A stretch of DNA of 64,000 nt from Mya arenaria (Eukaryota; Mollusca; Bivalvia; Myida; Myidae): NCBI RefSeq assembly GCF_026914265.1, contig NC_069138.1, positions 34,774,598 through 34,838,597 of the forward strand, written 5' to 3'. The position numbers and the translations under genes were made by a program. This document shows positions 2,881 through 54,382 of the stretch, in pieces (the stretch's first letter is position 1; every line of letters begins with the position of its first letter). Below the pieces are notes generated by a model that did no database searches, was not told the DNA's origin, and saw only the letters and a list, made by a program, of their open reading frames with translations.

Positions 2881-5800
2881 ATGGAAGATATATTCGTCCA
2901 AGGTTAGTAAAATCATGTTTATTAGATAAACATAATGGTAGCTTTTTCTGTATCAGCATTAGGGACGTTACTAGTGTCATGCCATCGTTGTCTATAAATG
3001 TAAAACGGTTTCTAAACTTCTAAAACAGTACATTTTTAAGCATATTAGCTTCTAAGAGGTTGACACAGGCTAGTGTTTTCAAGTCCGAGTAGTTATATCT
3101 GTGTACAAAAATACTTTAAACCGCCCAGTCAAATACTTTTTGGGAAAGGAAAACTAATGAAAACATTGCCTTTGATTTACTACCTGGTTATCCAGGAAGC
3201 AATTATTAATGGAATGAGATTAGAATTAAAATGACTGCGACAGTACATGCATATTTCTGTATACCTTATAGTTTGTTTTCAAGAAGACGCATTGACGCTT
3301 CTGCCACCCTCATACAAATGCAAAAATAGTTCTTAACAAACAATAAAACATCAACAGCAATGAAACTAATCAAAAAGCAATAAAAAAAACAAAAAACAGC
3401 CGCAATGTTAGAAATGTTTCTAACTATGTTTCACTTTCTCTTTGAATATACAGCGACAAGACACCCAAGAGTGCCTGAGAGAAAACTAAAAAGATATGGC
3501 GCTTCGATCAAGATTTTAAAGGATATAAAATCGTTGTGTCAGAGGTAAATATGCCAGATATATCGGAGATCGTTTTTTTTTACGAGGCAACGAAACCATC
3601 TATAGTCGCCGGTCCAAGAAAAAGTCAGAAGGTCCAAGCGTGCTAACACTTTCCTGGACGTACCCTACCTAGATTCACATTATATAAATATTTTCTTACC
3701 AATTTTTTTTTCGGTAAATGCAAATAAGTGCTGATTTGTGTTTTTACGTTTCTAAACTACGAATGAAGAAGATTGAGATTTATACATGAAAAAACATGGT
3801 AAATCCCAATATCATGGAAACTGACTTTTTTGATGATGTAGATACTGATATTGAGAATATCCTCGGCTGCTTATAATTGCATTTATTCAGACAGTTTTAG
3901 TGTCAAATTAATATATGGACAAGTCGACAAAGTTTGGTTGAAGTCGTCTTATTACTCAGTCTCAGCACTACATTATGTTGAATGACGAGTGGTTTGTCAA
4001 TGACTAATGTAAACGTTCAGATTTTACCGAGTAACTTCTAAGGTGAAATAAAGGTTGAATTGATCGGAATTGCTTATGTACAGAATATATATTTCTGTTT
4101 AATAATTCAAATTGTCAGTTTATCTTAATTCTACAAACAAATTCATTAAAGATACTTTTCACAGCAATTTACTGTATAAGTATATAGAAACTATGGGTGG
4201 GGCCATTTTTTATCCCAGGGTCACAATTTGCACATTCTTGGTAAATGCCACTACATGAGGCTTCGTGCCTAATATCATAGATACTTGCATTATAGTTCTC
4301 ACAATCTACCGAGTGCAGTTTTAATATGAGTAATATTTGAAGGTTTTACTTTTGAAATTATTCATTTTCTATGTTTCAGGTCCCAACAACCGGAAGTTAT
4401 ACTTCTTGTCGGTGACGTCGGTGCAGGCAAAAGCTCCTTAGTCAACACTATTATTCAAGCACTGACTGAACAACATCTTCCGAGGGCGAAAACTGGCAAA
4501 GGTGGCACACGCACCAAAACCATCACACTCCAAAGGTATGCTACAACATCAAATATTCGACTTTTAATTGGTTTTTAAACCATTCATTTTTTAAGTCCCG
4601 CTAGAGAGCAGGTTTGGAAGGCGGAAAGAAACACATTAAAGAATAGCCTTCGAGTAAGACAGATTATCATAAAAATTAGTCAATGCCTTTTTCAGAAAGT
4701 GTCAAGGAAATTAACATTAGACTCAATAAATGATGTAAAATATTTCTACTTCAATAACACTGCACATGAAAATAAAGTCCATTTTAATAATTCTTTAATA
4801 AACATGCAGCAAAGAGCACAATTCAAATAGTGATGAATTCGTTTTTAACATTTAAGTCGGTGTTTAGTAGTATAATGCATCCTCCAACGTTTGGCACCAT
4901 ACAAAGTGTTGGTACAATTTCCTATGTTTAGCACTTTTTACACATAGTGTTAGCACATTCTACATAGGTTTGAAACATTTCCCTATGTTAAGCACGTTTT
5001 ATATAGTTTTGAAACAATTTCTTGTTTGGCATGTTCTAAATAGTTTTGAAACAATTTCCTATGTTTAGGACGGTCTTCATAATTTTGAAACAATTTCCTA
5101 TGTTTAGGACGGTCTTCATAATTTTGAAACAATTTCCTATGTTTAGGACGGTCTTCATAATTTTGAAACAATTTCCTATGTTAAGGACGTTCTTCATAAT
5201 TTTGAAACAATTCCATTCCTATGTTAAGCCCTTCCTACATAGTAATTTTCCTTATTTGACACGATCTCCATAATTGCCATAGTTTTAAAATATTCTACTG
5301 TATTTGGCACGTTCTCTTTGTTGTATTATGACTTGAAGATCTTGCAATGGCTACCTTTTTATACTAACTGCTTATAGCGTTCAGTCTATTAGTTGTGATA
5401 TAAAACACACATTTCATGGCATGGCCACGGGCGAAAATGACGTTACATTGGTTTTATCTTTTAAATAAACTTAAAGATCAATTTGCTGAAATAAGGCGTG
5501 ATTCCTTGCGTTATGAATTTCACCAGTGGCCTGGTTTTCACCATATACATTGTATATACCTACAGGTTTTACCACTGCGGAGTCAACGAAAACGACCTAC
5601 AAGATGGCCACGAGTTGGAAGGCTTAACTGACATGCTTCCAACACTTACTGACTTTGCCGGCAATTCAAACTGTCATGAAGAATTTCTTGAAATTTTATT
5701 TCTTATTCTTGGCGGTACAGTTTTTTATATTTAATCGTGTTGTAAGATATATTTTTTTCTTAAAATTCTCTTGCATTTTGTGTTATATCGTTAACCACTA

Positions 5801-6796
5801 GAGTAATGAAATGAGTTGTTTTCATAAAAGCTCGCAATTTAAGATTTATATTCGATTGTAGAATAGTTGATTGTCATTTAATTCAACAATCAGCATGATA
5901 AAATTATGTACTAATTACAAAGCTATTTGCCACGGAGTTTTTAGGGTCTGACATGGACAAATTCAGACATAACCCAACTAAACTACTTTCAGGATACATT
6001 CCAACCGGCACTTCAATCAATTATCTCGAGGAATATCAGAGAAAATTCGGCGTTGGAAAACTGTCTCGGAAGTTCAACGCAAGCGACCCTGCACTAGAAG
6101 TGACAAAAATTGTCTTTGTGATAGACGCTCAATCCTCCTCGTTGCCTTATGCGCTTATTGATGGCATACAACGTGCCATCCAACAACACACTGCAGATGG
6201 ACAACTGAAGTGTATGTTGATTTATTTCATGTCACAAGAGCCTAAAATGGGCCTTAACTAATGTCTTAAATCGTAATTGTAAATGTTACAGTTTTCCTAT
6301 TATCAAACCCATGAATATAATTTCATTTTCAGATCACTGTGATCTTTTTGTCGTTTTGACGAAAATGGATGTCACAGATCAAGAAACAAAACTTGATTCA
6401 ACTGCGTCGGTTAGAGAGTCAAATGCGTCGCGTGAAAAGAGAGAACGCGAGCTTGCTGAAATGCTTACCATCGAGGGAGCCCTTAACGACAACCTCTTCC
6501 GGTGGATCAATTACAATGACAACATAACGGAGCAAAATCCCGAGATTGACATCATAGCCCTTACGTTTTTGAAAACCATGATGCAACAAAGACTGACAGA
6601 TGCCCAATCAAGCGTAAAACCCAAAGCACTGTTACCCAAAGAGTTGATTCAAATGAGAGTTGCAAAAATGTGGGATGATGCCTTGATATACGGCTGTAGA
6701 AATTGGAATAGTCTCGAGAAACAAACACAACTCATAGTGTTGGCGGTTCTGGGAGGGTTTTTTATCATCTTCCTCCTAAGCCGTTCTTATGCATGA
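2881..6796 (+). CDS. IFI44-like tail-anchored GTPase, copy A (six exons, 366 aa)
   Basis: Exons: 2881-2902, 3454-3544, 4380-4535, 5566-5714, 5993-6211, 6333-6796. All junctions are GT-AG and in phase, summing to 1101 nt. Domains: a basic N-terminal helix ending KSLCQR (to residue 38); P-loop GDVGAGKSS (49-57); G3 DFAG (119-122); hydrophobic strand KIVFVIDA (178-185); G4 TKMD (222-225); a charged loop; a segment resembling the IFI44 C-terminal region; and a single hydrophobic segment (about 346-361) before a five-residue tail, which suggests a tail-anchored membrane protein. Motif order and spacing recall vertebrate IFI44/IFI44L, which bind GTP and are interferon-induced; the anchor is not a usual part of those proteins. 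The start ATGGAAGA is chosen because copies A, C and D all keep it in phase with the canonical exon-2 acceptor. Function here is inferred; immune or membrane-remodelling roles are possible. Confidence 0.8.
4877..5320. repeat. Intron-3 minisatellite of copy A (~39-bp units, degenerate)
   Basis: About eleven diverged units contain the words TTTTGAAACAATTTCCTATG and TTTAGGACGG. The best-kept stretch is 5040-5200, with an exact 39-bp period. The same kind of repeat occupies intron 3 of copies B and C, so it was present before the genes duplicated. Short ORFs across it on both strands are repeat artefacts. Confidence 0.8.
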
Positions 6797-6932
6797 TTTC
6801 TTATGATGGAAAAGAAGTGACAATGTGGTATATCTGGCTTGACGTTCAATGAGTTTGTTTATAACTTTGACATTATCTTATAAAACAATGTTTTTTTCCA
6901 ACAGTTCGATTCGGCATTGTTTACACAATTGT

Positions 6933-10060: not shown

Positions 10061-10089
10061 ATGATGGCAAATACGTGACATGTGTGTGT

Positions 10090-10650: not shown

Positions 10651-12949
10651 ATTGCTTTATGGTAAATTGTACAAGTTTGACACCGCAAATGTGTTTGTGA
10701 CTTGCTTTGTTCACAAAAGCAAAAAAGCGTTAATATTTATATTTTTGTACCAAAATGCTTCAGACCATCCAAGCAAGTACGTTTTTACATAAGACAACTA
10801 TTGAAACCATTGTCGTTAATTTACTTCCTGGTCAGCCAAGAAAAGCAAAGCTGAATATGGTTCATATCAATCCAAATATGCAAGTAATTATTAAAGCTTA
10901 TTTATAATAACACAATAGTTCGATCGTAATGCAATAACACGGGCCACACTACAATAATGTTGTCCAAAGCGATCGGTACTTGTGTTACTTGTTTTTATAT
11001 AAAAACATGTAAAACAATATTAAGAAGCGATAATAGATGCGTATTCCTGAATACGGTACGCTAGTAGTTTTCTTTCATGAATACGTCTTTACGCAAGTGC
11101 GACCTACATATACAAATACAATGATACTATTCAATAAACAATAAAAACTACAACGATGATACGACCTAATAAGAAATAAAACACAACGACACTACTCAAT
11201 GAACAATAAAGCAACAAAAATGTTTATAATTTTATTTCTCGTTTATTATGCAGCAGGAAGACACCCAAAAATGGCTGAGAAAAAAACAAAAAATGGCGAT
11301 ACGATAAAATTGTTAAAAGAAATAAAATCGCTTTGTCAGAGGTAACTATGTCATATATATCGGGGATTGTTTATTTTACGGCGTAACCAGTCTACCCATA
11401 GTCCTATGAAAGATCAGAATGTCCAAGGGTTCCAACGCCTTCCTGGGCGTACCCAAACTAGATTCATATTATATAAGTATTTGCTTAACAATTTTGACCG
11501 AAACATCGGGAAATGCAGATCAGTACTTATAGGTGTTGATGCGTTTATAAACTACGAATGAAGAAAAATTGGATTTAAACATGAACAAACCTTGTAAAAC
11601 TACAATATCATAGAAACTTCGTTTGCTTAAATGAAATTGAAATGTCTGGGGTGCAATGAATCACATAAGGATGTAGAAAATGAAATTTAGAACATCCTCG
11701 ACTACTTATAATTGCACAACATTTGGTTTAAACAATGTTCTGACAATTTTAGCGTTCTACCCCTTGAAAGTATCCACATATACCCTTCCTCTTTAAACAT
11801 GATCGACCCATTGAATAGTGCTCGCACATGGGATCCTCTCGGAAGACGCTTTGTATTTTAGTTTTGAGGCGGGTTGGCAGTCAAGTGATTCAACTGTTTG
11901 TCGATAAAAACAACAGTCGGCATTATAACTTATTATGTCGACAAAGGTTTATTCGATAAATCCATTCGAACCGGTCCTTAAAAGTCCATTGCTCTACAAA
12001 ATTAATTACAGATTGATTGATTAAAAATGTTTATATATAGAAGAAACATATATCTATATAAAGTTAATATATGGACAAGTTGACATAGTTAGTCTCATGA
12101 GATTAAATGATCGGTAATTGCACTACATTATGTTGAATGACAAGTGGTTTGTCTATGACTTATGTAAATAGTGGTTCTTAGTTTACCGACTAATTTCAAT
12201 GGTGAAAACAAAGGTTGAATTGATCAAAATGTTTTGTTTTTATTTCTGTTGAATGTTTTGCATTTGTCAGCTAATATAGACATTCATTCTGGATACACAT
12301 TCATTGAAATTTGTATTGCCAAAGCATCACCTTCATTCACCAGGACTTCATTTTTGTTAATGAAAGAAACGCATAATTTTAATCTCCTTGGTGCAATTTT
12401 AATGTAAGAAATATAAGAAGTATTCTTTGTTTAACATTACTTATGACAGTATTCATTTTCAATGTTTCAGGTCCCAAAACCCGGAAGTTGTTCTTCTTCT
12501 CGGTAACGTCGGTGCAGGCAAAAGCTCCTTAGTCAACACTATTATTCAAGCACTGACTGAACAACATCTTCCGAGGGCGAAGACTGGCAAAGGTGGCACA
12601 CTTTCTAAAACCGTCACACTCCAAAGGTATGCTTTAACATAAGGTATCTGGCTTAGTAGGTTATAAAAAAAATATTTCCATGCGGTCCAAGTCACGCCAG
12701 AGGGCATGTGTGGAAGCCGGCAAGAAACAGTTAAATAGTAGCCTTTGAGTCAGAAAGATTATCATAATATGTCATCGCCATTTTCGATAGTGTCAAGGAG
12801 ATTGACACACTAGATGGACGAAATGGATGATGTTTAGTTGTAGCTTGTTTGTCTATCATAGACACTGCATATGCATTCAATCGCTTTTAAGACCAAAAGA
12901 GAACGATTTCAGTCATGGAAAATGTGTTTTTAACTTTTAACAAAGTTGG

Positions 12950-13400
12950 TCAGTGTTTAATAGTTTGGTGCACCATCTTACGTTTAGTACGTTCTCCACA
13001 GATTTGGTACATGTTTCAACATGTTTTAAAACAATTTACTATGTTTGGCACGTTCGCAATATTTTTAAAACATGCCCATATGTTTGCCAGTTTTCCATTG
13101 TTTTGAAATATCCTTCTACGTTTGGCACACTCTCCATATGTTTTGAAACATTCTCATACATTTTGCATGTTCTCCATTTGAAACATACTCCTATTTTTAT
13201 TAAGTTATTCTGAGTTTTGAAACATTACTTATGTTTGGCACTTTCTACATAGTTTTGGAATAACGCCTATGTTTGGCAAGTGTTTCATAGTTTTAAACAT
13301 CCTCCTATTTTAACGCGTTCAACATATGTTTTTAGACATCCTTGGTATGTTATCCGCAGTTTTGAAAGGTCCTACTACATGTAGCACGTTTTCCTGAGTG
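12950..13400. repeat. Intron-3 minisatellite of copy B (degenerate ~36-39-bp units)
   Basis: Recurrent words are ATGTTTGGCACGTTC, TTTTGAAACAT and CTCCATATG. They match the repeats in intron 3 of copies A and C. Units are well diverged, so the array is old and not recently expanded. Confidence 0.7.
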
Positions 13401-15054
13401 TTGTGCATCCTTTTGTTTGTGAAACCCGGTTAAAAAAACGCGCACGCCGTTTTCCGGGCGGGCGGACCTGCAGCTTTAAACTCAACCTTGATACGAGGCA
13501 ATTTCAGTTGGTACAAATAGAAGATTGTACATGTTAATTGAACCGTGCTCGCAGAATGGATTTCACACGATTGCGAGGGCAAACAATCTCATCCCCAAAT
13601 TTTGATAATTATGTCGCGGAAGTTTGAGTGTTGTTTAAGTATTTTTAATAAGTTTATTGACTCAATAAAGTATTCATTCATAATCGCATAAGTTTAACGA
13701 GTGAATTTGAAAATCTAGATCTTTTCAAACAAGGTGACAATAGCGTCTAAATACTTGCACCGTTGCAAAGCATAATTTTCAGGGATTCAACTACGTTTTG
13801 AGTACGAACCAAGATTTGTAGATGACGGGTCTAGTTTGAATTAGTTTAATAAAACTGACTAGAATTATATGTATAGGATCCCTGGGAACAAAGAAAAAGC
13901 CTTCAGAGGATTGACAGCTACCTGTTTTACCGTTAATTAACACTTCGTAACGCCGCGTTTCGCGTTGACTCGACGCGGTGGAACGCCGGGGAAGTTATTG
14001 GTATGAACGCGTTGACCATCACACTTCAGTCGCAGCGTATAGTGATAATTAGATTAAAAGATAACGTCCATGGTAAGGGGAAATCGCGGCGATGTGCGAA
14101 ATGTGCAAAAAAAAAACGTATGGTTGGTGGTGTACATGCATAAAAAATTCTAAAAAAAGGCGTGTGACTTTTGCACATTTGTACCTTTCAACCATAAAAC
14201 AGGACAAAGTCTGAATTCCCAACTACCACTGGTCAACCAGCTGATCTTTGGATATTCGCAAATAACAGCTTAATATAAACATTAACATCTTACTACTATG
14301 TAATTAATTATTCGAATCCCAAACTGGCAACTAGCAGGAAGTTGAATATTCCGAAACAAATAGGTAGTTGGATATCCGAATCCCCAACTACCAACTACCT
14401 TTACCGCTATATATATTTTATATGTTACCGTTATCTTCGAAAACCAGGCCACAGCCGAAAAAAACGTAATACGAGAAATCACTTTTTTCCAACAAGCTAT
14501 TTTTGGCTGAAGTTGGTTTCATTTTGAATGTCTCTTTGTTTATTGACAGTGGAATAAGGTTAAAAGTACTGCGTTCTCATCCGGTGTATTCGACAGTAAG
14601 TGGAATTTTGCAGATTGGAATTAAAGTCTGCAAAAATCCACGAGAGTCGAACACGACATTTCGGATTAAAACGCAGTTCTTACAATCCTTTCATTAAATA
14701 CATTATTGCTTAAAATACTTAAAAGATACATGTTTTCATAATAAATGTCATTTTATAATGACATGACGTCTTTGTTTTTGTTATATGATGACGTTATTTT
14801 AACAGCGCGCATTGGTACGCTTATGATATGACGTCAGCAGATTAGAATACGGTCGTATTGCATTGGAGTGCAATACGGACTTACGTATTTTGCAATATAT
14901 ATTGCGTTTGGGGTTATAATTGGTATATACTAAAAATAAAACCACCGTCAAAATTTAAAACAAAATGTGCTGTAAAATTGTGATTTCTTGCGTTACGTCA
15001 TATCATCATGTGGCCTGTTTTTTCGCATACTAAATATAAAGCGTTTATCTTCAG
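13401..15054. other. Rest of intron 3 of copy B
   Basis: No exon is seen. A short low-order repeat of CCCAACTACC-type words lies near 14220-14400. Several TGACGTCA-like or GACGTCA words occur between 14760 and 15000 within probable repeat-derived sequence. Nothing here could be assigned to a named family. Confidence 0.4.
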
Positions 15055-15224
15055 GTTTGACCAGTGCGGGGTCAACGAAAACGACCTTGAAGATGGCCAC
15101 GAGTTGAAAGGCTTAACACGCTACCAACGCTGATTGACTTTGCCGGCAAGTCAGGCTGTCAAGATGAATTTATTGAAACTTTAGATCTTATTCTTGGAGG
15201 TACTGTTCTCTACACAAAACTTTT

Positions 15225-16115
15225 GCAAGAAAACCTTTACGTCGGTATTAACACTGACCATATTTCAATCTATTTACTGCGTTTTGCCTACGATGCGTTG
15301 ATTGTTTCAGAGACTAAGTCAGGATTGCAGAGCTCTCTAAACAGTAATATTGCCGCAAATGGAATCTCACTAAGGTTATGGTTTTCGGAAAGGGTCGACC
15401 GGGATAAATGGTTTTATAATAGTAAAGAAGTAAAACTTGTTAGTTCTTTCAATTATCTAGGAGTTTTATTTACCAGTGGTGGTTCATTTATGCAAGGTAC
15501 CAAAACTCTAGCAAGGAAATGCTTGAGATCTCTATAAATATCAATTTTAATCTATTCAACGCATATGTACTATCAGTTCTTTACTATGATTCTTAGGTTT
15601 GGGATTATATTAACTCGGAGGTTTAAGAAAGTCTACAAGAAGTTCTGTAAATGGGTATAAACTTCATTTATAGTGTTGATAACTTTTCTTCTACAAACAG
15701 ACTGTCAAACATGTTAAGGAGATCATCTGATCTTTATGAGGTATGGCCCGTAAAATATGTAAGGCTTGTTCCCGCACTGAAGAATAGATTTAGAATCTTA
15801 TGTCTTGGTTAGACTTGTCACCTTTTGTAGACGTATTCAAAGAAATAGAGGCCAGTTTTGAAACAATCCTAATATCGCAGTCTTATAGAAAATAAGTATA
15901 AAATCATTTTAGCTCAATTACGGTTATCATCCAATAAAATAAATATACAGTCTGGTAGACACAATAAATATCCCAGAAAATAAAGAAAATGTACAATTAT
16001 TAATTTATGAGAGGACGAGTTTCATTTCGTCATCAAATGCCCAGTATATGCATACCGTGGACGTCAATATATTCCGAGGTATTTTAAAACTCAACTCAAC
16101 CGAGTTTAATGATAT
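15225..16115 (+). mobile_element. LINE 3' fragment in intron 4 of copy B
   Basis: A broken reading frame gives the RT end and C-terminal part of a LINE: RFAYDALIVSETKSGLQSSL (a decayed (Y/F)ADD box and helix), then WFYNSKEVKLVSSFNYLGV and FTSGGSF. It ends with a degenerate zinc-knuckle region containing HFVIKCPVYAYRGRQYIPR. Several frame changes and stops show it is inactive. A related C-terminal region (CPHCNVLEEEEVHVLIEC) lies at 33272-33556. The insertion is within an intron and would not alone break the gene. Confidence 0.75.
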
Positions 16116-16171
16116 ATATATATATATATATATATATCATTAAACTCGGTTGAGTTTTAAAATACCTCGGA

Positions 16172-16178
<7 letters not shown>
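16066..16178. repeat. Near-perfect fold-back palindrome with an (AT)n centre
   Basis: The left arm runs from AATATATTCCGAGGTATTTT and the right arm is its reverse complement ending at 16178. Arms are ~48 bp around an (AT)n core. The left arm has one extra CTCAA. The left arm is the coding end of the LINE fragment (QYIPRYFK), so the right arm is the secondary copy. Confidence 0.9.
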
Positions 16179-16208
<30 letters not shown>

Positions 16209-17686
16209 TTCATATAGTATTCCTTTTAATTATGTGTTTCCCTTTTTTCTCAATTCGCTTTTAAATATGAGAACATGCTACTTGTTGTTTTGTTGATTGT
16301 CACCTGTCGTGATTAAATTTTAACGAGTAGTTCTTTTTGATACATATAGATAGACATTTTTTATTATTTAGTTTTTGTAAACTCAATATTATTCTTAAAC
16401 GTTTAGCTATTTATTTAAAAAAGTGAAGCATACTGATATCACACATATTCTTTTTTGGTTTTGAAAGATTGCAAAATATGTCATATTTCTTTCTTTTTTT
16501 GTTGAAATAAAGAACAATAATAAAAACTGCAATAATTGTATCTACAATGTATATTGAATAATTTATTTCACATATTCGTAACAAGCGAGCAATAACCGTT
16601 AAAATGATACCAATATTAAATGGGGCCCTCAGGTATTCAAATGTGTTATTGTCGCCAATAGCTCGATTGGCAAGCTTATTTGTACATTGGATAGATTAAA
16701 TTCAGCAATTTATATACATGTACTTATGAGAAGTATCCTAACAAAGCCATTTTCAGGATACATTCCAACCGGTACTTCAATCAAATATCTCGAGGAATAT
16801 CAGAGAGAGTTCGGCGTTGGAAAACTGGCTCGAAAGTTCAACGCAAGCGACCCTGCCTTGGAAGCGACCAAAGTCGTCCTGGTGATAGACACCACATGCC
16901 ACTCGTTGCCAAAGGCGCATATTGAGAGCATACTTTGTGCCACTCAACAATACACTGGAGATGGACAACTGAAATGTCGGTACATGTATATGTCTTCCAT
17001 GTCACAAAAACCATGAATAGTGCGTTAACTTATGAATTTAATAGTTATTATTCATGTTACACTTTTCCTATTATAAAAAAAAACATGATTATTTGCCATA
17101 TGACCTGTCTGAGAATATAATTTCATTTTCAGATCAGTGTGATCTTTTTGTCGTTTTGACAAAAATGGATCTTGGAAAGGATGACAAAGATGAAGAAACT
17201 TCGCGTAAAGAGAGAGAACGCGAGCTTGCAAAAATGCTTACCATCGAGGGAGCCCTTAACGACAACCTCTTCCGGTGGACCAATTACAATGACGACATAA
17301 CGGAGCAAAACCCCGAGATTGACATCATGGCTCTTACGTTTTTGAAAACCATGATGCAACAAAGACCGACAGATGCCCAATCAAGCGTGAAACCTAAAGT
17401 ACTGTTACCCAAAGATGTATTTCTTATGAAAGTTGAAAAAATATGGGATGATGCCATGATAAAATGCTGTACAAGTTGGAGCAGTTTGGAAAGACAAACA
17501 AAACTTGCAGTATTGGCCGTATTGGGAGGATGTTTTATCATCTTCCTCCTAAGCCATTCAGTTATGACAAACAAAGAAGAGACACTTTGATATACCTAAC
17601 TTTGACATGATTCTACAAAATACTGAATCGTTTTACAACAGTACGATTCGTTATTGTTCACACATTCGTAAGTCTATTTAAAATTA

Positions 17687-22400: not shown

Positions 22401-25400
22401 TAGCATACATATATGGTCAATGTTTCAGGTCCAAACAATCGGAAGTTATACTTCTTGTCGGTGACGTCGGTGCAGGAAAAAGCTCCCTGGTCAACACTGT
22501 TATTCGAGCATTGACGGAACAACATCTTCCGAGGGCGAAAACTGGCAAAGGTGGCGCAGGCTCTAAAACCGTCACACTCCAAGCGTATGCTATACGTTAC
22601 GTTTACCATATTTTGGTCCATCCCCCAATGTTAAGCATATGTTGATGTATCCTCCCATGTTAGCAAGTTCACCGTATGATGATGCATCCTCATATGTTAA
22701 GCACGTTCTCCATATGTTGATGCATCCTCCTATGTTTAGCACGTTCTCAATATGTTGGTGCAGCCTCCTATGTTTAGCACGTTCTCCATATGTTGGTGCA
22801 TCCTCCTATGTTTAGCACGTTCTCCATACGTTGGTGCAACCTCCTATGTTTAGCACGTTCTCCATTTGTTGGTGCATCCTCCTATGTTTAGCACGTTCTC
22901 CATACGTTGGTGCAACCTCCTATGTTAAGCACGTTCTCCATACGTTGATGCATCCTCCTATGTTTAGCACGTTCTCCATTATGTTGATGCATCCTCCTAT
23001 GTTTAGCACGTTCTCCATATGTTGGTGCAGCCTCCTATGATTAGCACGTTCTCTATTTGTTGGTGCATCCTCCTATGTTAGCAAGTTCATCATATGTTGA
23101 TGAATCCTCCCATGTTAAGCACGTTCTCCATATGTTGGTGCATCCTCCTATGTTTAGCACGTTATTCATTTGTTGTTGCAACCTCCTATGTTAAGCACGT
23201 TCTCAATACGTTGATGCATCCTCCTATGTTTAGCACGTTCTCCATACATTCGTGCAACCTCCTATGTTAAGCACGTTCTCAATACGTTGATGCATCCTCC
23301 TATGTTTAGCACGTTCTCCATACATTGGTGTAACCTCCTATGTTTAGCACGTTCTCCATACATTGGTGCAACCTCCTTTGTTAAGCACGTTCTCCATATG
23401 TTGGTGCAGCCTCCTATGATTAGCACGTTCTCTATGTGTTGGTGCATCCTCCTATGTTAGCAAGTTCATCATATGTTGATGAATCCTCCCATGTTAAGCA
23501 CGTTCTCCATATGTTGGTGCATCCTCCTATCTTTAGCACGTTATTCATTTGTTGTTGCAACCTCCTATGTTAAGCACGTTCTCAATACGTTGATGCATCC
23601 TCCTATGTTTAGCACGTTTTCCATACATTGGTGCAACCTCCTATGTTAAGCATGTTCTCAATACGTTGATGCATCCTCCTATGTTTAGCACGTTCTCCAT
23701 ACATTGGTGCAACCTCCTATGTTTAGCACGTTCTCCATACGTTGGTGCAACCTCCTATGTTAAGCACGTTCTCCATACGTTGATGTTTCCTCCTATTTTA
23801 GCAAGTTCACCATATGTTGGTGCATACTCCTATGTTAAGTACGTTCTCCATATGTTGGTGCATCCTCCTATGTTTAGCACGTTCTCCATTTGTTGGTGCA
23901 ACTTCCTATGTTAAGCACGTTCTCCATATGTTGGTGCATCCTCCTATGTTAAGCACGTTCTCCATTTGTTGGTGCATCCTCCTATTATTAGCACGTTCTC
24001 TATATGTTGGTGCATCCTCCTATGTTTAGCACGTTCTCTATATGTTGCTGCATCCTCCTATGTTTAGCACGTTTTCCATCTGTTGGTGCATCCTCCTATG
24101 TTTAGCACATTCTCCATATGTTGATACATCCTTCTTTGCTTAACACGTTCTCCATTATGTCGGTGCATCCTTCTTTGCTTAGCACATCCTCCATATGTTG
24201 GTGCATCCTTCTTTGCTTAGCACGTTCTCCATTATGTTGGTGCATCCTCCTATGTTTAGCACATTCTCAATTATGTTGGTGCATCCTCCTATGTTTAGCA
24301 CATTCTCCATTATGTTGGTGCATCCTTCTATGTTTAGCACGTTCTCTATTTGTTGGTGCATCCTCCTATGTTTAGCACGTTCTCTTGAGTTGGTGCATCC
24401 TTCTATGTTAGCAAGTTTATCATATGTTGATGCATCCTCCTATGTTAAGCACGTTCTCCATATGTTGGTACATCCTCCTATGTTAAGCACGTTATTCATT
24501 TGTTGGTGCAACCACCTATGTTAAGCACGTTCTCCATACGTTGATGCATCCTCCTTTGTTTAGCACGTTCTCCATATGTTGGTGCAACCTCCTATGTTTA
24601 GCACGTTCTCCATTTGTTGGTGCAACCTCCTATGTTTAGCACGTTCTCCATACGTTGATGCATCCTCCTATGTTAGCAAGTTCACCATATTTTGGTGCAT
24701 CCTCCTATGTTTAGCGCGTTCTCCATATGTTGGTGCAACCTCCTATGTTTAGCACGTTCTCCATATGTTGGTGCATCCTCCTATGTTAAGCACGTTCTCC
24801 ATTTGTTGGTGCATCCTCCTATCATAAGTACGTTCTCTATTTGTTGGTGCATCCTCCTATGTTTAGCACGTTCTCTATATGTTGCTGCATCCTTCTATGT
24901 TAAGAACGTTCTCTATATGTTGCTGCATTCTCCTATGTTTAGCACGTTCTCTATATGTTGCTGCATCCTCCTATGTTTAGCACGTTCACTATATGTTGCT
25001 GCATCCTTCTATGTTAAGAACGTTCTCTATATGTTGCTGCATCCTCCTATGTTTAGCACGTTCTCTATATGTTGGTGCATCCTCCTATGTTAAGCACGTT
25101 CTCCATTTGTTGGTGCATCCTCCTATCATAAGTACGTTCTCTATTTGTTGGTGCATCCTCCTATGTTTAGCACGTTCTCTATATGTTGCTGCATCCTTCT
25201 ATGTTAAGAACGTTCTCTATATGTTGCTGCATCCTTCTATGTTTAGCACGTTCTCTATATGTTGCTGCATCCTCCTATGTTTAGCACGTTTTCTATATGT
25301 TGCTGCATCCTTCTATGTTAAGAACGTTCTCTATATGTTGCTGCATCCTCCTATGTTTAGCACATTCTCATTTATGTTGCTGCATCCTCCTATGTTTAGC

Positions 25401-28400
25401 ACGTTCTCTATATGTTGCTGCATCCTCCTATGTTTAGCACGTTCACTATATGTTGCTGCATCCTTCTATGTTAAGAACGGTCTCTATATGTTGCTGCATC
25501 CTCCTATGTTTAGCACGTTCTCCATATGTTGGTGCATCCTCCTATGTTAAGCACGTTCTCCATTTGTTGGTGCATCCTCCTATCATAAGTACGTTCTCTA
25601 TTTGTTGTTGCATCCTCCTATGTTTAGCACGTTCTCTATATGTTGCTGCATCCTTCTATGTTAAGAACGTTCTCTATATGTTGCTGCATCCTCCTATGTT
25701 AAGCACGTTCTCTATATGTTGCTGCATCCTCCTATGTTTAGCACGTTCTCTATATGTTGCTGCATCCTTCTATGTTAAGAACGTTCTCTATATGTTGCTG
25801 CATCCTCCTATGTTTAGCACGTTCTCTATATGTTGGTGCATCCTCCTATGTTAAGCACGTTCTCCATTTGTTGGTGCATCCTCCTATCATAAGTACGTTC
25901 TCTATTTGTTGGTGCATCCTCCTATGTTAAGCACGTTCTCTATATGTTGCTGCATCCTTCTATGTTAAGAACGTTCTCTATATGTTGCTGCATCCTCCTA
26001 TGTTTAGCACGTTCTCTATATGTTGCTGCATCCTCCTATGTTTAGCACGTTCTCTATATGTTGCTGCATCCTCCTATGTTTAGCACGTTCACTATATGTT
26101 GCTGCATCCTTCTATGTTTAGCACGTTCTCTATATGTTGCTGCATCCTCCCATGTTTAGCACGTTCTCTATATGTTGCTGCATCCTCCTATGTTTAGCAC
26201 GTTCACTATATGTTGCTGCATCCTCCTATGTTTAGCACGTTCTCCATATGTTGGTGCAACTTCCTATGTTTAGCACGTTCTCCATACGTTGATGCATCCT
26301 CCTATGTTAGCAAGTTCACCATATGTTGGTGCATCCTCCTATGTTTAGCGCGTTCTCCATTTGTTGGTGCAACCTCCTATGTTGAGCACGTTCTCCATAT
26401 GTTGGTGCATCCTCCTATATTAAGCACGTTCTCCATTTGTTGGTGCATCCTCCTATCATTAGTACGTTCTCTATTTGTTGGTGCATCCTCCTATGTTTAG
26501 CACGTTCTCTATATGTTGCTGCATCCTCCTATGTTTAGAACGCTCTCTATATGTTGCTGCATCCTCCTATGTTTAGCACGTTCTCTATATGTTGCTGCAT
26601 CCTCCTATGTTTAGCACGTTCACTATATATTGCTGCATCCTCCTATGTTTAGCACGTTCTCTATATGTTGCTGCATCCTCCTATGTTTAGCACGTTCTCT
26701 ATATGTTGATGCATCCTCCTATGTTTAGCACATTCTCCATATGTTGGTGCATCCTTCTTTGCTTAGCACGTTCTCCATTATGTTTGTGCATCCTCCTATG
26801 TTTAGCACATTCTCCATTATGTTGGTGCATCCTCCTATGTTTAGCACGTTCTCTATTTGTTGGTGCATCCTCCTATCTTTAGCACGTTCTTTTGAGTTGG
26901 TGCATCCTCCTACGTTTAGCACGTTCTCCGTATGTTGATGCATCCTCCTACATTGAGCACGTTCTCTATATGTTGATGCATCCTCCTATGTATAGCACGT
27001 TCTCCATATGTTGGTACATCCTCCTATGTTAAGCACGTTCTCCATATGTTGATGCATCCTCCTACATTGAGCACGTTCTCTATATGTTAATGCATCCTCC
27101 TATGTAGATCACGTTATATATATGTTGGTGCATCCTCCTATGTTGAGCACGTTCTCTATATGTTGATGCATTCACCTATGTAGATCACGTTATATATATA
27201 TGTTGGTGCATCCTCCTATGTTGAGCACGTTCTCTATATGTTGATGCATCCTCCTATGTAGATCACGTTATATATATGTTGGTGCATCCTCCTATGTTTA
27301 GCACGTTCGCCATATGTTGATGCATCCTCCTACATTGAGCACCTTCTCTATATGCTGATGCATCCACCTATGTAGATCACGTTATATATATGTTGGTGCA
27401 TCCTCCTATGTTTAGCACGTTCTCCATATGTTGATGCATCCTCCTACATTGAGCACCTTCTCTATATGCTGATGCATCCACCTATGTAGATCACGTTAAA
27501 TATATGTTGGTGCATCCTCCTATGTTTAGCACGTTCTCTATATGTTGGTGCATCCTCCTATGTTAAGCACATTCTCATTTATGTTGGTGCATCCTCCTGT
27601 GTTTAGCACGTTCTCTATATGTTGGTGCATTCTCCTATGTTTAGCACGTTCTCCATATGTTGGTGCATCCTCCTATGTTGAGCACATTCTCAATATGTTG
27701 GTGCATCCTCCTATGTATAGCACGTTCTCCATATGTTGGTGCATCCTCCTATGTTAAGCACGTTCTCCATATGTTGGTGCATCCTCCTATGTTTAGCACG
27801 TTCTCCATATGTCGGTGCATCCTCCTATGTATAGCACGTTCTCCATATGTTGGTGCATCCTCCTATGTTTAGCACGTTCTCCATATGTTGGTGCAACCTC
27901 CTATGTATAGCACGTTCTCCATATGTTGGTGCATCCTCCTATGTTGGTGCATCCTCCTATGTATAACACGTTCTCCATATGTTGGTGCATCCTCCTATGT
28001 TTAGCACGTTCTCCATATGTTGGTGCATCTTCCTATGTATAGCCCGTTCTCCATATGTTGGTGCATCCTCCTATGTTTAGCACGTTCTCCATATGTTGGT
28101 GCATCCTCCTATGTTTAGCACGTTTTCCATATGTTGGTGCATCCTCCTATGTTTATCACGTTCTCCATATGTTGGTGCATCCTCCTATGTTTAGCACGTT
28201 CTCCATATGTTGGTGCATCCTCCTATGTTTAGCTCGTTCTCCATATGTTGGTGCATCCTCCTATGTTAAGCACGTTCTTCATATGTTGGTGCATCCTCCT
28301 TTGTATAGCACGTTCTCCATAAGTTGGTGCATCCTCTATCTAAGCACGTTCCCCATATGTTGGTGCATCCTCCTATGTTTAGCACGTTCTCCATATGTTG

Positions 28401-31138
28401 GTGCATCCTCCTATGTATAACACGTTCTTCATATGTTGGTGCATCCTCCTATCTTTATCACGTTCTCCGTTTTGTATCCTCCTGCATCAAGCACGTTCTC
28501 CATATGTTGGAGTATTCTCCCATATTTAACACGTTCTCTATACTTTGGTGAATCGTCCTATATTTAAGACGTGTTCCATATGTTGCTGAATCCTCCTAAA
28601 TTTAACACGATTTTCATATTTTGGTGCATCCTCCTTTGTTCAACATCTTTTCTATAGTTCTGAAATATTATCCTGTGTGTTTGGCACGCTCCCCATAGTT
28701 TTAAAACATACTCTTGTGTGTTTTGCACATTCTCCATACTTTTGAAACAATCACATGTGTTTGTTCTCGTTATTATTGCAACATTCTCCTGTGTGTTTGG
28801 CACGTTCTGCAGAGTTTTGAAATGTCCTCTTATGTTTTGCAAGTCCTCCATACGTTTGAAACATCCTCCCATGTTTTGCAAGTTCTCCATAGTCTTGAAA
28901 CATCCTCCAATGCTGTGCACGTTCTCCATAGTTTTAAAACATCCTCCAATGTTTTGCAAGTTCTCCATAGTTTTAAAACATCCTCCTATGTGTTTTGCAA
29001 GATCTCCATAGTTTTGACACATCCTCCTATGATTGGTATCTCTACAGTTTTCAAACATCCTCCTCGTGTGTTTTGCACGTTCTTAAATCGAATCGTGTTC
29101 GAATTAAATTCTCTTTCTGTACTTAAAGGTCCATGAAAGGAAGGTATACCATGCAATACATTCCTTAGAGTGCATTAATTACTAGTTAATGTTTGTTTGT
29201 ATTTTCTTTTCTTTTTTCTTGTTTTTTTTGTGTTCATTGTTTTATAACCATCATATACTGGTGGGAATAAAGACTATTAAATCAAAATGAATGTATCATA
29301 TGTATGATACGCAATCTTCGAAAACAAGGCGACATGCGAAAATGACGTTCAGAGAGAAACGCGACATTGGTTTCATACTTACTGACACTCAATTCATTGA
29401 TACTAAAATATAAAACGATTGTCACGATTTACAATAAGCGTGCTGAACGAGCATGTGTTTTTTTTTGCATTACGTCTTTTTCACCTAGGCGTTGTGTTCA
29501 CAGACTGTGTCACATAAATTGTGTACGTCTACAGGTTTAACCAGTGCGGGGTCAACGCAGACGACTTTAAAGATGACCACGATTTGAAAGGATTAACTGA
29601 CATGCTACCAACGCTTATCGACTTTGCCGGCAATTCCATCTGTCAAAAAGAATATCTTGAAATTTTAGAGCTTATTCTTGGAGGTACTGTTTTCAACGCC
29701 TACCTTTATTTGCGTTATAAGATGTCTCTTTCCTTAATTTTTTGGTCTGTGTTTTGTGGTTATAGTATATATAACATATATTTAAATTTCTATGAAACCG
29801 CTTAAGAGGTGTATTGAGTTATTTCCATTTGTCAAACGTGGGTATGTTTTCTGTTTATGATCTTTAATCGATTATAGAGTGTTTTGATTAGTAATAAGGT
29901 AAATGTATCTTGTACTGTGTAAACACTTGTGTGGTTTTGATGTCTGGCTACCCCATGCTATTTTGAAAAAGAATACTATAACGATATCATTCACATTCTT
30001 TTTGGCCCTGAGGAGTGCCAAAATAGTTCATTTTTCTTCCGATTTCAGTTGAAATGATGAACAATAATATAAACTACAATAACGTTTTCTACAATGTATG
30101 TTTCACATTTGAGTTATCAAAAAGGATACCAAAAGCATATTGGGTCCTCAGACATCCAATTTTAGCATTATCGCCAATAACTCGATGAAACCAAGCTTAA
30201 ATTTACATCGGATACCTTAAATTCAGCAACTTATAACGTGGCTATTTCAGCTGAAAGTCTGCAGGGGAATATTTCCTTTCATACTTAACCTAACAAAATC
30301 ACTTTCAGGATACATTCCGACCGGCACTTCAAGCAAATTTCTCGAGGAATATCAGAGAGAATTCGGCGTTGGAAAACTGTCTCGGAAGTTCAACGCAAGC
30401 GACCCTGCCATGAAAGTGACCAAAATAGTCTTCGTGATAGACGCTCAATCCTGCTCGTTGCCTAAAGCGCTTATTGAGGGTATACAACGTGCCATCCAAC
30501 AACATACTGCAGATGGACAACTGAAGTGTAGGTAGATTTATTCCATGTCCCAAGAGCCTAAAATGTGTCTTAACTAATGTCTTAAATCGTCATTATAAAT
30601 GTTACAGTTTCTCTATTATCAAACCTATGATTAATTGCCTTATGACCTGTCTGGGAATTTCATTGCATTTTCAGACCACTGTGATCTTTTTGTCGTTTTG
30701 ACAAAAATGGATGTCACAGATCAAGAAACAAAACTTGATTCAACTGCGTCGGTTAAACAGTCAGGTGTGTCGCGTGAAGAGAGAGAACGCGAGCTTGCTG
30801 AAATACTTACCATCGAAGGAGCCCTTAACGACAACCTCTTCCGATGGACCAGTTACCATGACAAAAATACGGAGCAAAGTCCTCAGATTGACATCGTGGC
30901 TCTTACGTTTTTGAAAACCATGATGCAACAAAGACCGACAGTTGCCCGATCAAGCGTGAAACCAAAAGCACTGTTGCCCAAAGAGTTTATTCAAATGAGA
31001 GTTGAAAAAATATTGGATGATGCTTGGACATACGGCTGTAGAAATTGGAACAGTCTCGACCAACAAACACAATTCATAGTTTGGGCCGTGCTTGCAGGGT
31101 GTTTTATCATCTTCCTCCTAAGCCTTTCTTATGCATAA
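19409..31138 (+). CDS. IFI44-like tail-anchored GTPase, copy C (six exons, 366 aa)
   Basis: Exons: 19409-19433, 20116-20203, 22429-22584, 29535-29683, 30309-30527, 30675-31138, total 1101 nt, all in phase. Motifs are those of copy A: P-loop GDVGAGKSS, G3 DFAG, strand KIVFVIDA, G4 TKMD, IFI44-like C-terminal region, then a hydrophobic anchor (FIVWAVLAGCFIIFLL). Exon 6 is closest to that of copy A (both have KMDVTDQETKLDSTASV); copy B differs there. Two oddities stand out. Intron 3 is ~6.95 kb because it holds a 38-bp satellite. The exon-3 donor is AAGC|GTATGC where A and B have AAAG|GTATGC, changing the split codon from Arg to Ala and weakening the site. The frame is whole, but efficient splicing across intron 3 is unproven. 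Confidence 0.75.
20940..21565. repeat. 21-bp satellite in intron 2 of copy C
   Basis: About 28 diverged units of the form ATGTATCAACACACCGTGAGC. No alternating dimer pattern is visible, so this is the monomeric state. The same monomer is one half of the 42-bp unit that fills intron 2 of copy D, at the matching intron position. Small ORFs across it on both strands are artefacts. Confidence 0.85.
21594..22020 (+). mobile_element. Second Helentron-like element, in intron 2 of copy C
   Basis: The left end TTCGACTCTTCGAAGATTGA and right end ATCGAGCGTGCTC...ACAGCTTTTGTT resemble the ends of the element at 905-1816. The 164-bp core repeats are missing; the interior is ~370 bp of non-coding DNA. The GGCGTCGGCG block near the left end matches the same place in the first element. 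Confidence 0.55.
22620..28560. repeat. 38-bp satellite array in intron 3 of copy C (about 155 units)
   Basis: The unit reads TATGTTGGTGCATCCTCCTA then TGTTTAGCACGTTCTCCA. Variants alternate in blocks: GTTGCTGCATCCTTC with GTTAAGAACG, ATCATAAGTACG, TGTTAGCAAGTTCA, and TGTAGATCACGTTATATAT. The ATCATAAGTACG variant recurs at 24821, 25125, 25582 and 25886, i.e. steps of 304, 457 and 304 bp (8, 12 and 8 units), showing higher-order repeats. The array begins ~35 bp after the exon-3 donor. Many short ORFs with CWCILLCLARS-like peptides arise from it and are not genes. Confidence 0.95.
28561..29085. repeat. Degenerate flank of the intron-3 satellite in copy C
   Basis: Units of ~36-39 bp contain GTTTTGAAACATCCTCC, ATGTTTTGCAAGTTC and TCCATAG. 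They are closer to the old repeats in introns 3 of copies A and B than to the homogenised array before them. This is probably the ancestral, unexpanded part. Confidence 0.8.
29086..29534. other. End of intron 3 of copy C
   Basis: No exon is seen before the acceptor at 29534. The stretch 29120-29285 ends in GGGAATAAAGACTATTAAATC and looks like the 3' tail of a retroposed element, but no family could be named. Confidence 0.35.
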
Positions 31139-43700: not shown

Positions 43701-45599
43701 TATATTCTATTAAATTTGTCCTGAAAATCTTTGAATTCATGAACTTTTCTGCATATTTATCACATTTATGACTATATTAAAGGTTGTGTATGCCTCAAAT
43801 GAGTGTTTACAGGCCTTTTTCAAACTTTAACAGTAGTGGCAGATAGTTTTATTTGTGTAAAACATTGCTTTTGTGTCTTGCTTGCAGATCATGATGTGCC
43901 AATAAGCTCCAGTTAGCTGCGGCCTTTTCCCCAGGCGGTAGTCCTGCAATCTGAATCCAGGAGATGCAGCTCTGAATCCAATATTTCAGAAGAATGAAGA
44001 TGTTAGTCAACTCTGTAGTGCTTGTTTGTGTGTAAATGATTCCAATGAGTGAGATTTATAGCAAATCAGGTGTAAATAAGCATCTTATAGACAATAGTGA
44101 AGTGCTGTACTCTGAATTTAATGCCAAATCTAGCCTTCAAAACAGATTCTTAAAGTAATTTTTTTTTAAAAATGGGCATAATAATGCTATCTCTGCATTT
44201 TCTACATCATGTAGCCACCTCATACATGAAAACACTAGCAGTTGTCATGAATCTTTAAGTTTTGGTGTGTTTTTTGCCATTTCCTTTGTTGCGCCATTTG
44301 TCCCGGAAGCCAACAATTTGGCATATAGTGTTGTTTAGACTGTCTATTAACACATTATCACTAAATTTCTTGTGTTAAACTGAACAGTTCTGTTACCTTT
44401 GTATATAAGTGGACCAGAAAAGCAAAATTTTGACAAGTTGAGGCATTTCAGTTGGGCTCTATGTCATTTTTTATATAAAACACTAAGCCGATGAAGTGGA
44501 AAAACCTTATTTTGCTTAGAAAAAATCTTAAAAGAGTAGGCAGGCCAGTTTTGTGGTGCTGTTCTATAGACACCATTAAAAGCTACAAGGAAAACTTTAC
44601 TTGGTCAAATTATTCCAATGCATAAGGAAATAATGGCTCTTCAAAGGTTTGCGGCTTAACATTTGAGGGAAATGGCTGTTTCTGCTTTTTATGAAAATAC
44701 CACAGGTGCTAATACTTGTCTCATTCATTTAGTGTTTGATATATCATTGCCAAACTTTCAGTATGTGTTGCATATAGCCTGAAGCTGAAGTATAGGAGTT
44801 TTGAAGTCTGTTTCTGAAAAAATGTTGCTTAAATAGGCTCAAGACCACAGTTATCTGCCCCCCGTTGACCAAGATCCGGATGTGAATACAGAAACAAAGA
44901 GTGCTTGTGTTCAAGTATCAATATTTTATTAAAATTGAATGAAAAAGAAGCAAAAAATGTTCTTTTTGCAGAGAACTTGACTGAATTTGACACTCTATTG
45001 CAGAAATTGATAGTTTTCAATGTAAATATTGGAAAAATCATAGCTTGTGGAAGTCTGAAAATTAGTTGTTTGTAGCCGATTGACTCCCTGGCGGAAGGGT
45101 TATGTATTTGAACTCAATTTTGACAGTCGGGTCAATGGTCAACATGGTGTTTTCTTGTGATTATATTTTGTGTCTTGAATTGTTCTAGAGATGCCATGTC
45201 CTTGTTTTTCAATTGGGGTGTGTATAAAGTCAAAAGCCAGGTTAGTGTCTATATGAAACATATAGTAAAAATAACTGTGGTCTCACGCCAGATGCTCTGG
45301 TAGGAAGGTAACATACTGATATTCACTCTGAGTTTAGCCCAAGATGCTTTAGAAATTATTACCGACCGCAAGTGTGCCATCGCCTGCAGGGTTTGTTATT
45401 ATAACCTGGTGTGACCATAAAGCAGGCTTACTTGTAAGGGTGTACATATATTTCTAATATAACTTTTATGAGATAAGAAACCAAAATGATTGTCTGAAAG
45501 TCAAAATAGTTGTATCCCAGGTTTCGCGTTGCTAATGCTTCAAATACTGTGATTTGCCTGCTACACAATAACAAAATACTATTCATTCTATAAATTACT

Positions 45600-46375: not shown

Positions 46376-46567
46376 TGTAATGATATCATGTATGTGGCCA
46401 GTCTATGGTCACATGGTCAAGCATGCTGTAATTTGATAGGCACTTCCGCCCAAAGGTGAAGCGCCAGTTCTTAGAATAAACTCACACTGCTAACATCGCT
46501 GTTCTCTGTGTTTATTACAATCCTAAACTTAAGTGGATTTAATGCATCCGATTAGCATATCTTTACA
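46376..46567 (+). repeat. 5' LTR of the Ty3-type element
   Basis: 192 bp, TG...CA ends, with an AATAAA near the middle. It matches the 3' LTR without visible difference. Confidence 0.93.
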
Positions 46568-46687
46568 TGGTGTCAGAAGTAAAAACTCTGACACATAATC
46601 TAGTGGAAATTGAAAGGAATTATTTCAACGTTCCAAAAGGATATACGTGGACATAACACATTGTTTTGAACTTGCCCATTCAAACAC

Positions 46688-50653: not shown

Positions 50654-50924
50654 ATGAAAGCATGTGAGGTTTGTTTACTATTCGTAGTAAATGCCATGCA
50701 TAGTAAATTCCTGAGTGCCACAGTCCAGACTGTAAACAGCCTCTATAGACTGGCACGCGGGATTAAATCACCATGCAGCACATGTTTTATATGACGTGTT
50801 GATATACCGGACTACATCAAACACATGTTATTTTTATACTGTTTATATAAGTTATCAAATTAAGATTCTTTGATGAAATATGTATCTCTCATAAAAATGT
50901 TGTTCAATCTCAAAAGAAGAAAGA

Positions 50925-51116
50925 TGTAATGATATCATGTATGTGGCCAGTCTATGGTCACATGGTCAAGCATGCTGTAATTTGATAGGCACTTCCGCCC
51001 AAAGGTGAAGCGCCAGTTCTTAGAATAAACTCACACTGCTAACATCGCTGTTCTCTGTGTTTATTACAATCCTAAACTTAAGTGGATTTAATGCATCCGA
51101 TTAGCATATCTTTACA
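50925..51116 (+). repeat. 3' LTR of the Ty3-type element
   Basis: 192 bp, same sequence as the 5' LTR by eye. It is preceded by a polypurine tract at about 50911-50924 and followed by the GATTG duplication. Confidence 0.93.
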
Positions 51117-52975: not shown

Positions 52976-53063
52976 TTCAATATCCAGGATTGGAACGAAA
53001 GAAATAAACTTATTTAGTTACCATCAGCAGGTGCGTGTGACGTCACCAATGAGTAATCCTGAG
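52966..53063 (+). promoter_or_regulatory. Conserved upstream/5' leader segment of copy D with a CRE-type site
   Basis: It aligns with 2756-2880 and 19286-19408. TGACGTCA lies at 53038-53045. The upstream ATG seen in A and C is lost. The stretch GGAACGAAAGAAATAAAC here is weakly like an interferon-response motif (paired GAAA), but the spacing is not the consensus. Confidence 0.45.
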
Positions 53064-54382
53064 ATGAATATGGAAGATGTATGTGTTAAAGGTGAGTTAA
53101 ATCTTAACTTTATATATACATGACATATATAACTATATCACTTCCTTTATCAGCATTGGGGGCGTTACTCGCGTCATCCTTTCTTTATTTTTTAAATGTG
53201 ATTTGGGTTTGGTAATATCAGCCTAAGCTACTAGAATAGTGCATAATAATGTATTGTATTCAAGCTACTATGATAACTTCAGATCTTCAGCCAATGTGTT
53301 TCTTATATCCCCTTACTATTTTTATTGACATCTAGCAAAAGCAAAAACAGACTTGAATATTTATAGCAATGTACCATCCAATCAAATACGTATTTACATA
53401 AGACAACTATTGAAAACAAACATTATCTTTGATTTACTTCCTGGTAAAACCAAACACAACAAAGCTGAATATGGTTTCTATCAAACCAAATATGCAAGCC
53501 GGATAGGGGCTAGACACCAGACGGTCACAACATTGGAAAATGTTTATAATTATTTCCACAAGACAATATGAGCTTCTATGAGGCCGATAATAGAACATAT
53601 AGATAAAAGAAAATGTTCGCTGTCTCAGCTGAGTTAACCCGTTTAAGATTAGCGCATAATGGGTTCCCAGTTTTATATAGTGTGTATATTTAGCATGTGA
53701 AGGTCACATGGTTAGTAGCCTTTTTTTAATTAAATGGGAATTACGTGGTAAAAAGCCCTGTTAAACATTGAATTGGAAAAATACGCAAAATCTGCGAAAG
53801 ATACATATATGTCGTAAACGATGTGATACATAAGTTATTAAGATTCAATGCGTTGTACACGACGATATCAATTTATGTAAGTTTTTAACAATTTCCATTT
53901 TATTAGCAATTGTATCATCTGGTCTCTCCCTTTTAAGCTGATTTATAATAACACACAATTTCGATCACGATGCAAGAACCGTACTTACGAAGCACACTTT
54001 AATCATGTTATCAATAACAGACGTTGATTTTGCTTATGTTTTTATATAAATAGAACAATATTTATAAGCGATAATGCATATTCGTGTATATGGTAGTTTT
54101 CATTCGTGAAGACGTCTTTACGTAAGTGCCACCTACATACATATGCAATGATATTACTCAACAAGCAATAAAAAACAACAATAACGATGATAGTACCTAA
54201 TAAGAAAAAAAAACAATGTTACAACTCAATATACAATTAAAACAACTACAGCAATACTTAGTGTAAGTAATTTTATTTCTCTTCGATTATGCAGCGAGAA
54301 GTCATTCAAGAGTGACTGAGAGAAAAACAAAAGATGGCGATACGATCAAGTTGCTAAAAGAAATAGAATCGCTGTGTCAGAG
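53064..54382 (+). CDS. IFI44-like GTPase, copy D, 5' part (exons 1-2)
   Basis: Exon 1 is 53064-53091 (MNMEDVCVK plus one base; the ATG at 53070 corresponds to the start used in A and C). Exon 2 is 54295-54382 and encodes the basic helix region ending IKLLKEIESLCQR. Both have good GT/AG borders and the same phases as copies A and C. The donor at 54383 leads into intron 2, which is filled by the 42-bp satellite from 54680 to the window end. Exons 3-6 with the GTPase motifs would lie beyond 64000, if present. Copy D is the counterpart of copy B by its upstream flank. Whether it is whole cannot be told. Confidence 0.6.

Follow-up and report, generated by a model that had tools for sequence, protein, structure and literature searches.

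The window analysed here is a 64,000-nucleotide stretch of the genome of the bivalve Mya arenaria (contig NC_069138.1, termed C17; C17:34774598-34838597). It contains a tandem array of genes for GTPases with a predicted C-terminal membrane anchor, and four copies of the gene, A to D, lie wholly or partly within it (Table 1). An initial interpretation made from the letters of the window, hereafter the sequence-only reading, had described these genes as coding for IFI44-like GTPases.

Organization of the GTPase gene array

The sequence-only reading counted four copies sharing one six-exon plan, two of them intact. The intact copies are A and C: each has six exons, GT-AG borders at every intron and an open frame without stop, and both encode GDVGAGKSS, DFAG and TKMD followed by a final hydrophobic run. 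Their first exons, up to the P-loop exon, encode 38 amino acids only. The common plan does not extend in full to the other two copies. In copy B, whose exon borders were assigned on the model of A and C, exon 1 was found neither by blastn with the exon-1 region of A nor by a search for ATGGARGA, and the deletion in exon 4 breaks the frame; the last exon is open, with a hydrophobic segment at its end. Copy D is completed only outside the window, where exons 3-6 (C17:34844066-34848262) lie about 15-19 kb farther on, past a minisatellite. Spliced across the window edge, it has an open frame of 371 amino acids.

The further copies in the window were located by tblastn and blastn with the exons of copy A. 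Exon-level DNA identity to A is 71-92 per cent, with E-values down to 0.0, and bears out the local duplication that had been proposed; this duplication is not a matter of chance. Exon 6 encodes TKMD as well as the hydrophobic tail, and skipping of this exon could therefore not delete the tail alone.

Table 1. Features of the array and associated sequences; positions are those of the window.
Feature	Position	Strand	Details
Octamer TGACGTCA	2852..2859	+	Begins 29 bases before the start codon of copy A
Copy A, intact, 366 aa	2881..6796	+	Exons 2881-2902, 3454-3544, 4380-4535, 5566-5714, 5993-6211, 6333-6796
Hydrophobic segment of copy A, TQLIVLAVLGGFFIIFLLS, and last four residues	6725..6793	+	Position calculated from residue 344 (of 366)
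Copy B, degraded	11254..17590	+	Exons 11254-11341, 12471-12626, 15055-15199 (4-nt deletion), 16757-16975, 17133-17590
Copy C, intact, 366 aa	19409..31138	+	Exons 19409-19433, 20116-20203, 22429-22584, 29535-29683, 30309-30527, 30675-31138
Minisatellite in intron 3 of copy C	22636..28640, approximate		Ladder of offset blastn matches against the E block; long open frames in several frames
Copy D, part in the window	53064..54382	+	Exon 1 53064-53091, exon 2 54295-54382
Minisatellite of ~42-base units in intron 2 of copy D	54600..63620, approximate		Open reading frame list; blastn ladder

Members of the family elsewhere in the genome

A search of the genome (1.216 Gb in 18 contigs) with the last exon revealed at least six loci of the subfamily present in the window (subfamily 1, copies A-F), all on C17 at 34.78-35.20 Mb. 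Subfamily 2 comprises at least seven last-exon loci on C17 at 21.09-22.68 Mb, with 34-37 per cent identity to A, and subfamily 3 at least three on C5 at 65.63-65.73 Mb, with 30 per cent identity to A. These counts are lower bounds, the genome search scoring only the best candidates. In a five-sequence alignment of the three subfamilies, the fully conserved columns include DxAG, GTSI, VTK and WxxYxD, and subfamily 1 has the same intron phases after the P-loop exon (2, 1, 1; splice sites read by eye) as the subfamily-2 gene L034. Copies A, C, D and F are under purifying selection: the ratio of nonsynonymous to synonymous substitution rates (dN/dS) is 0.55 for A-C, 0.38-0.39 for A-D, A-F, C-D and C-F, and 0.23 for D-F (six pairs).

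The size of the family depends in part on how copies E and F are understood. In the 20 kb examined at copy E, only exons 4-6 were detected; copy F is a near twin of D. The E block is 94.9 per cent identical to the region of C over 9.2 kb (mostly minisatellite) and 99.4 per cent identical over a 1.9-kb flank, and F is 98.0 per cent identical to D over 3.3 kb; the two blocks are either recent duplications or uncollapsed haplotypes. Near-identical GTPase loci were also observed on C17 at 21.09-21.11 and 22.59-22.61 Mb (L033/L034 and L032/L035), 1.5 Mb apart and one of them frameshifted, which represent recent segmental duplication or assembly duplicates. If E, F and these pairs were all uncollapsed haplotypes, a possibility that the high identities favour and to which we give somewhat under an even chance, the family would be smaller than it appears. 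The spacing of the last exons argues against it, being 42.5 kb between C and D and 19.6 kb between E and F. The divergence among A, C and D also speaks against it: their protein identity is 76-79 per cent, and with 21-24 per cent protein difference and dS values of 0.21-0.34 these three are paralogues, whatever E and F are.

Two lone P-loop exons, L036 5943-6092 (C5, 17.7 Mb) and L037 5181-5330 (C12), were accompanied by no other exon of the family in the 10 kb read. They adjoin retroelement-like frames and look closest to subfamily 3.

The C-terminal hydrophobic segment

Membrane segments were predicted from hydropathy, copy A being scanned whole and the other loci by their last exon. The segment of copy A, TQLIVLAVLGGFFIIFLLS, lies within the last 23 residues, four residues from the end of the protein, and has a Kyte-Doolittle 19-residue mean of 2.38 and a Wimley-White octanol value of -11.4; the best 19-residue window starting before residue 320 reaches 1.53. 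The sequence-only reading had noticed this segment but put its length at ~16 residues, where the 19-residue window gives ~19.

A transmembrane-grade segment ends the frame in 15 of the 16 last-exon loci of the three subfamilies (6, 7 and 3 loci examined), with means between 2.26 and 2.73 over 19 residues and octanol values between -8.4 and -14.2; at the sixteenth locus (22.604 Mb), the frame breaks upstream of the segment. It is followed by 0-7 residues in subfamilies 1 and 2 and by 26-28 in subfamily 3. As a rough background, such a tail occurs in 5 of the 229 window frames of at least 60 amino acids, copies of this gene counted in, and it is missing in both of the TLDc-containing IFI44-like genes tested (L046 and L047). 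The tail is a recurrent trait of the family, not a local oddity. By hydropathy, the proteins have the features that define a tail anchor, namely one membrane segment close to the C-terminus and neither a signal peptide nor another stretch of strong hydrophobicity, and a tail-anchored topology is thus predicted.

The same segment could be a buried core helix and no membrane anchor. The anchor is predicted from hydropathy only, and one K or R is present in five of the 15 best windows, those of D, F and three loci of subfamily 2. However, the other ten are free of D, E, K and R, the hydrophobicity of the tail is conserved across subfamilies while the identities of its residues are not, and the strongly hydrophobic values recur near the C-terminus at all loci but one. 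We therefore regard a buried helix as improbable.

Relationship to IFI44-like proteins

Vertebrate IFI44 and IFI44L have the same motif order as the clam proteins and are interferon-induced, and they are not known to be tail-anchored. Using hhalign, we compared profiles of the clam family with IFI44L genes of the same genome and with GIMAPs. The two-subfamily profile matched IFI44L with a probability of 95.3 per cent (E = 2.3e-8, 221 columns). On addition of the third subfamily, the match to the TLDc-containing IFI44-like genes improved to 97.0 per cent (E = 1e-10, 222 columns, 23 per cent identity), and the comparison with a profile of five IFI44L sequences, of which three are partial, gave 97.2 per cent (E = 3.1e-11, 224 columns). 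Three GIMAPs matched over 25-30 columns at the P-loop, with E about 2e-5. Once the P-loop part had been removed, the IFI44L score was 31.3 (a probability of 24 per cent alone), above all 60 column shuffles (maximum 21.4), and the GIMAP score was 13.1. With the IFI44L profile whole, 40 shuffles of all its columns scored 21.0 at most. This suggests that the IFI44-like character of the family extends past the P-loop, the margin being moderate. Among the families compared by profile (IFI44L and GIMAP), IFI44-like proteins appear to be its best relatives, and an IFI44-like ancestry is likely.

Of the three comparable introns, one agrees in phase and nearly in position: the last is in phase 1 both in L046, the one IFI44L gene read in detail, and in the window genes, where by our reading it lies within about one residue of the same place, just before G4. 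The chromosomal neighbourhood is consistent with an IFI44-like kinship. The TLD domain (PF07534) has at least 82 matches in the genome, of which at least ten lie on C17 at 34.29-35.35 Mb, around the array; no match falls between C17:34717786 and 34988968 among those listed, and hence none in the window. In the two of the ten C17 loci that were fetched (L046 and L047), TLDc exons are followed by exons with the P-loop, DTxG, VVFVL and TH/TK. Many TLD matches are clustered on C1, C7, C9, C16 and C17, and their number and clustering suggest a large expansion of TLDc genes. The GTPase family described here is a further part of the GTPase and TLDc gene expansion of this clam.

Several results weigh against a place among the IFI44 proteins. 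The TLDc domain is missing from the window genes, and of the three comparable introns two depart from those of L046 in position and phase: the introns after the P-loop exon and the G3 exon are in phase 0 in L046 and in phases 2 and 1 in the window genes, some residues off. The clam genes are for these reasons not IFI44 with an added tail. The membrane-tethered invertebrate branch envisaged in the sequence-only reading is supported in part, by the recurrent tail and the profile kinship. As to the profiles themselves, 40 shuffles that kept the first 60 IFI44L columns reached a score of 69.7, against 78.3 for the real profile, so that most of the score comes from the P-loop exon. IFI44L matches GIMAP with E = 7.9e-8 over 133 columns; part of the similarity is therefore general, and the margin over general GTPase likeness is moderate. 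The IFI44L profiles are also shallow, being built from 2-5 sequences, of which three in the set of five are partial. Pfam returned no IFI44-specific answer for A and C. Among the best 25 of 35 and the best 25 of 32 families, the matches were many, weak and mostly to the P-loop: RsgA_GTPase had the lowest E-value (1.1e-6) at 29.1 bits, under its cut-off of 30, and cobW passed its cut-off of 20.7 in both copies with 24.1 bits. Gtr1_RagA (PF04670) narrowly passed its cut-off of 22 with 23.4 bits in A and 24.7 in C, and was matched at E <= 0.1 by each of the five family members scanned, which represent the three subfamilies (best E-value 3.4e-5); the IFI44L protein L046 did not match it at E <= 1. 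The Protein Data Bank (PDB) held no match at E <= 0.001, the best values being 0.47 (single sequence), 0.019 and 0.006 (three-subfamily profile), and the last of these is to the P-loop region of Gtr1. The predicted structure of the last exon of three window copies, with a mean predicted local distance difference test score (pLDDT) of 49, was too poor to be used for a fold search. Finally, no interferon-stimulated response element (ISRE) was detected within 500 bases upstream of A or C.

On a rival reading, the genes constitute an independent family of GTPases with membrane anchors, related no more closely to IFI44 than to Rag/Gtr, GIMAP or others; the resemblance would then reflect common GTPase architecture, and the TLDc neighbourhood would be coincidental. 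The absence of TLDc, the different introns, the Gtr1_RagA matches and the likewise significant IFI44L-GIMAP similarity would all fit, as would the retention of the family's own marks (DxAG, GTSI, VTK, WxxYxD) in three subfamilies; in the IFI44L genes read here, DxAG is replaced by DTxG. However, the stretch matched by Gtr1_RagA spans about 70 residues (175-245 in A, 175-248 in C; profile positions 76-144 of 232), compared with the 222 columns aligned with IFI44L, the part outside the P-loop matches IFI44L and not GIMAP, and inclusion of the third subfamily strengthened the IFI44L match. In the subfamily-2 gene L034, Gtr1_RagA reaches 13.2 bits, below the cut-off. Rag/Gtr, for which seven matches were located in the genome, was set against the clam family by its Pfam model. 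A separate family seems to us rather unlikely, though it deserves serious weight. On whether another GTPase family provides a better match, which the sequence-only reading had named as a possible refutation, the outcome is divided: GIMAP is a worse match, and the Gtr1_RagA model matches every member scanned.

Other families were considered and rejected. GIMAPs (AIG1, PF04548) share the P-loop with the clam proteins and are also numerous in this genome (69 matches), but the similarity is confined to P-loop columns, and AIG1 scores 13.7 bits in copy A, with a cut-off of 27. IRG/IIGP proteins (PF05049) are membrane-acting immune GTPases; they, septins and dynamins, judged by Pfam, matched only in the P-loop region, IRG/IIGP doing so in copy C with E = 8.3e-4 and 19 bits (cut-off 24). 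Anti-phage families gave weak, mostly P-loop matches (best E 5.4e-5). All NCBIfam matches of the first member were far under cut-off, and among the 587 stretches of prokaryote genomes and 87 of viral contigs that fit the search patterns, none was confirmed as a relative.

Possible function of the clam GTPases

Weighing these results, we put at roughly 0.55 the probability that the bivalve genes in this tandem array encode IFI44-like GTPases anchored in a membrane. The product of each would comprise a short N-terminal stretch without TLDc, a P-loop GTPase domain and a C-terminal transmembrane helix. As the motifs G1 (GxxGxGK[ST]), G3 (DxAG) and G4 (TKxD) are intact, GTP binding is predicted. 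Insertion of the helix would be post-translational, so that the G domain would stay cytosolic and 0-7 residues (26-28 for subfamily 3) would come to lie on the far side of the membrane; cytosolic G domains held at an intracellular membrane are the most likely arrangement. Candidate membranes include those of the endoplasmic reticulum, the mitochondrion or a pathogen-bearing compartment. Some GIMAPs have a C-terminal membrane anchor, and on the model of these proteins the G domains might self-associate on the membrane in a nucleotide-dependent manner. We infer tail insertion, topology, GTP binding, self-association and an immune role from sequence and analogy.

An immune role is plausible in view of what is reported for other bivalves. 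Excerpts of two reports state that oyster IFI44 transcripts increase after infection with the herpesvirus OsHV-1 (PMC4111845) and mussel IFI44 transcripts after exposure to Vibrio (PMC6401078), and both consider the biochemical role of IFI44 proteins still unclear. The oyster protein CgIFI44L-1, composed of TLDc and MMR_HSR1, is given as cytoplasmic in an excerpt of a review (PMC11682996), and the excerpt of PMC9334734 merely lists IFI44. In searches of an open-access library, the titles and abstract openings listed mentioned no tail-anchored bivalve GTPase and no membrane-anchored IFI44-like protein. Lacking the front domain of IFI44 and ending in a putative membrane anchor, the clam family may represent a membrane-bound arm of the clam defences.

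It could also be asked whether these are housekeeping membrane GTPases, concerned with organelle shape or trafficking and locally expanded, that have no role in immunity. The upstream sequences lend themselves to this explanation. Copies A, C, D and F share the octamer TGACGTCA, which we take to be of the cAMP response element (CRE) type; it begins 29 bases upstream of the ATG in A and C and 26 bases upstream in D and F, within a conserved block, and three of the five TGACGTCA octamers of the window are at these genes. Yet the 500 bases upstream, in a scan that covered mostly one strand, show no ISRE, STAT or NF-kB pattern common to the four copies. A single ISRE-like and a single STAT-like match precede both D and F, and one STAT-like match precedes A. 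Against a housekeeping function stand the IFI44-like nature of the nearest profile relatives and the local expansion with duplicate and broken copies, which is more usual for defence genes. We consider such a function rather unlikely.

More speculatively, bivalves and perhaps other lophotrochozoans may possess an undescribed group of tail-anchored immune GTPases, split from IFI44-like genes by loss of TLDc and gain of the anchor, which would be the membrane-bound partner of the many soluble TLDc-containing IFI44-like proteins encoded nearby. We hold this scenario to be quite doubtful. If it were true, the retention of the anchor in three subfamilies that have diverged would suggest that IFI44-like proteins act at membranes, and the clam would provide a testable system for asking which membrane is involved and whether soluble IFI44-like partners are drawn there. 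If the family is unrelated to immunity, its description amounts to a modest gene-family note.

Repeats and mobile elements in the window

In the minisatellite of copy D, several frames on either strand stay open over hundreds of codons. Between copies C and D, a unit of ~2.91 kb is repeated in tandem about three times (36101-45293) with 99.94 per cent identity, each unit containing a 114-amino-acid frame on the minus strand, which suggests that the repeat is very recent or an assembly effect. A long terminal repeat (LTR) retrotransposon occupies positions 46376-51116, with one long open frame (46670-50653). Its two 192-base terminal repeats are 100 per cent identical, and the insertion is thus probably recent.

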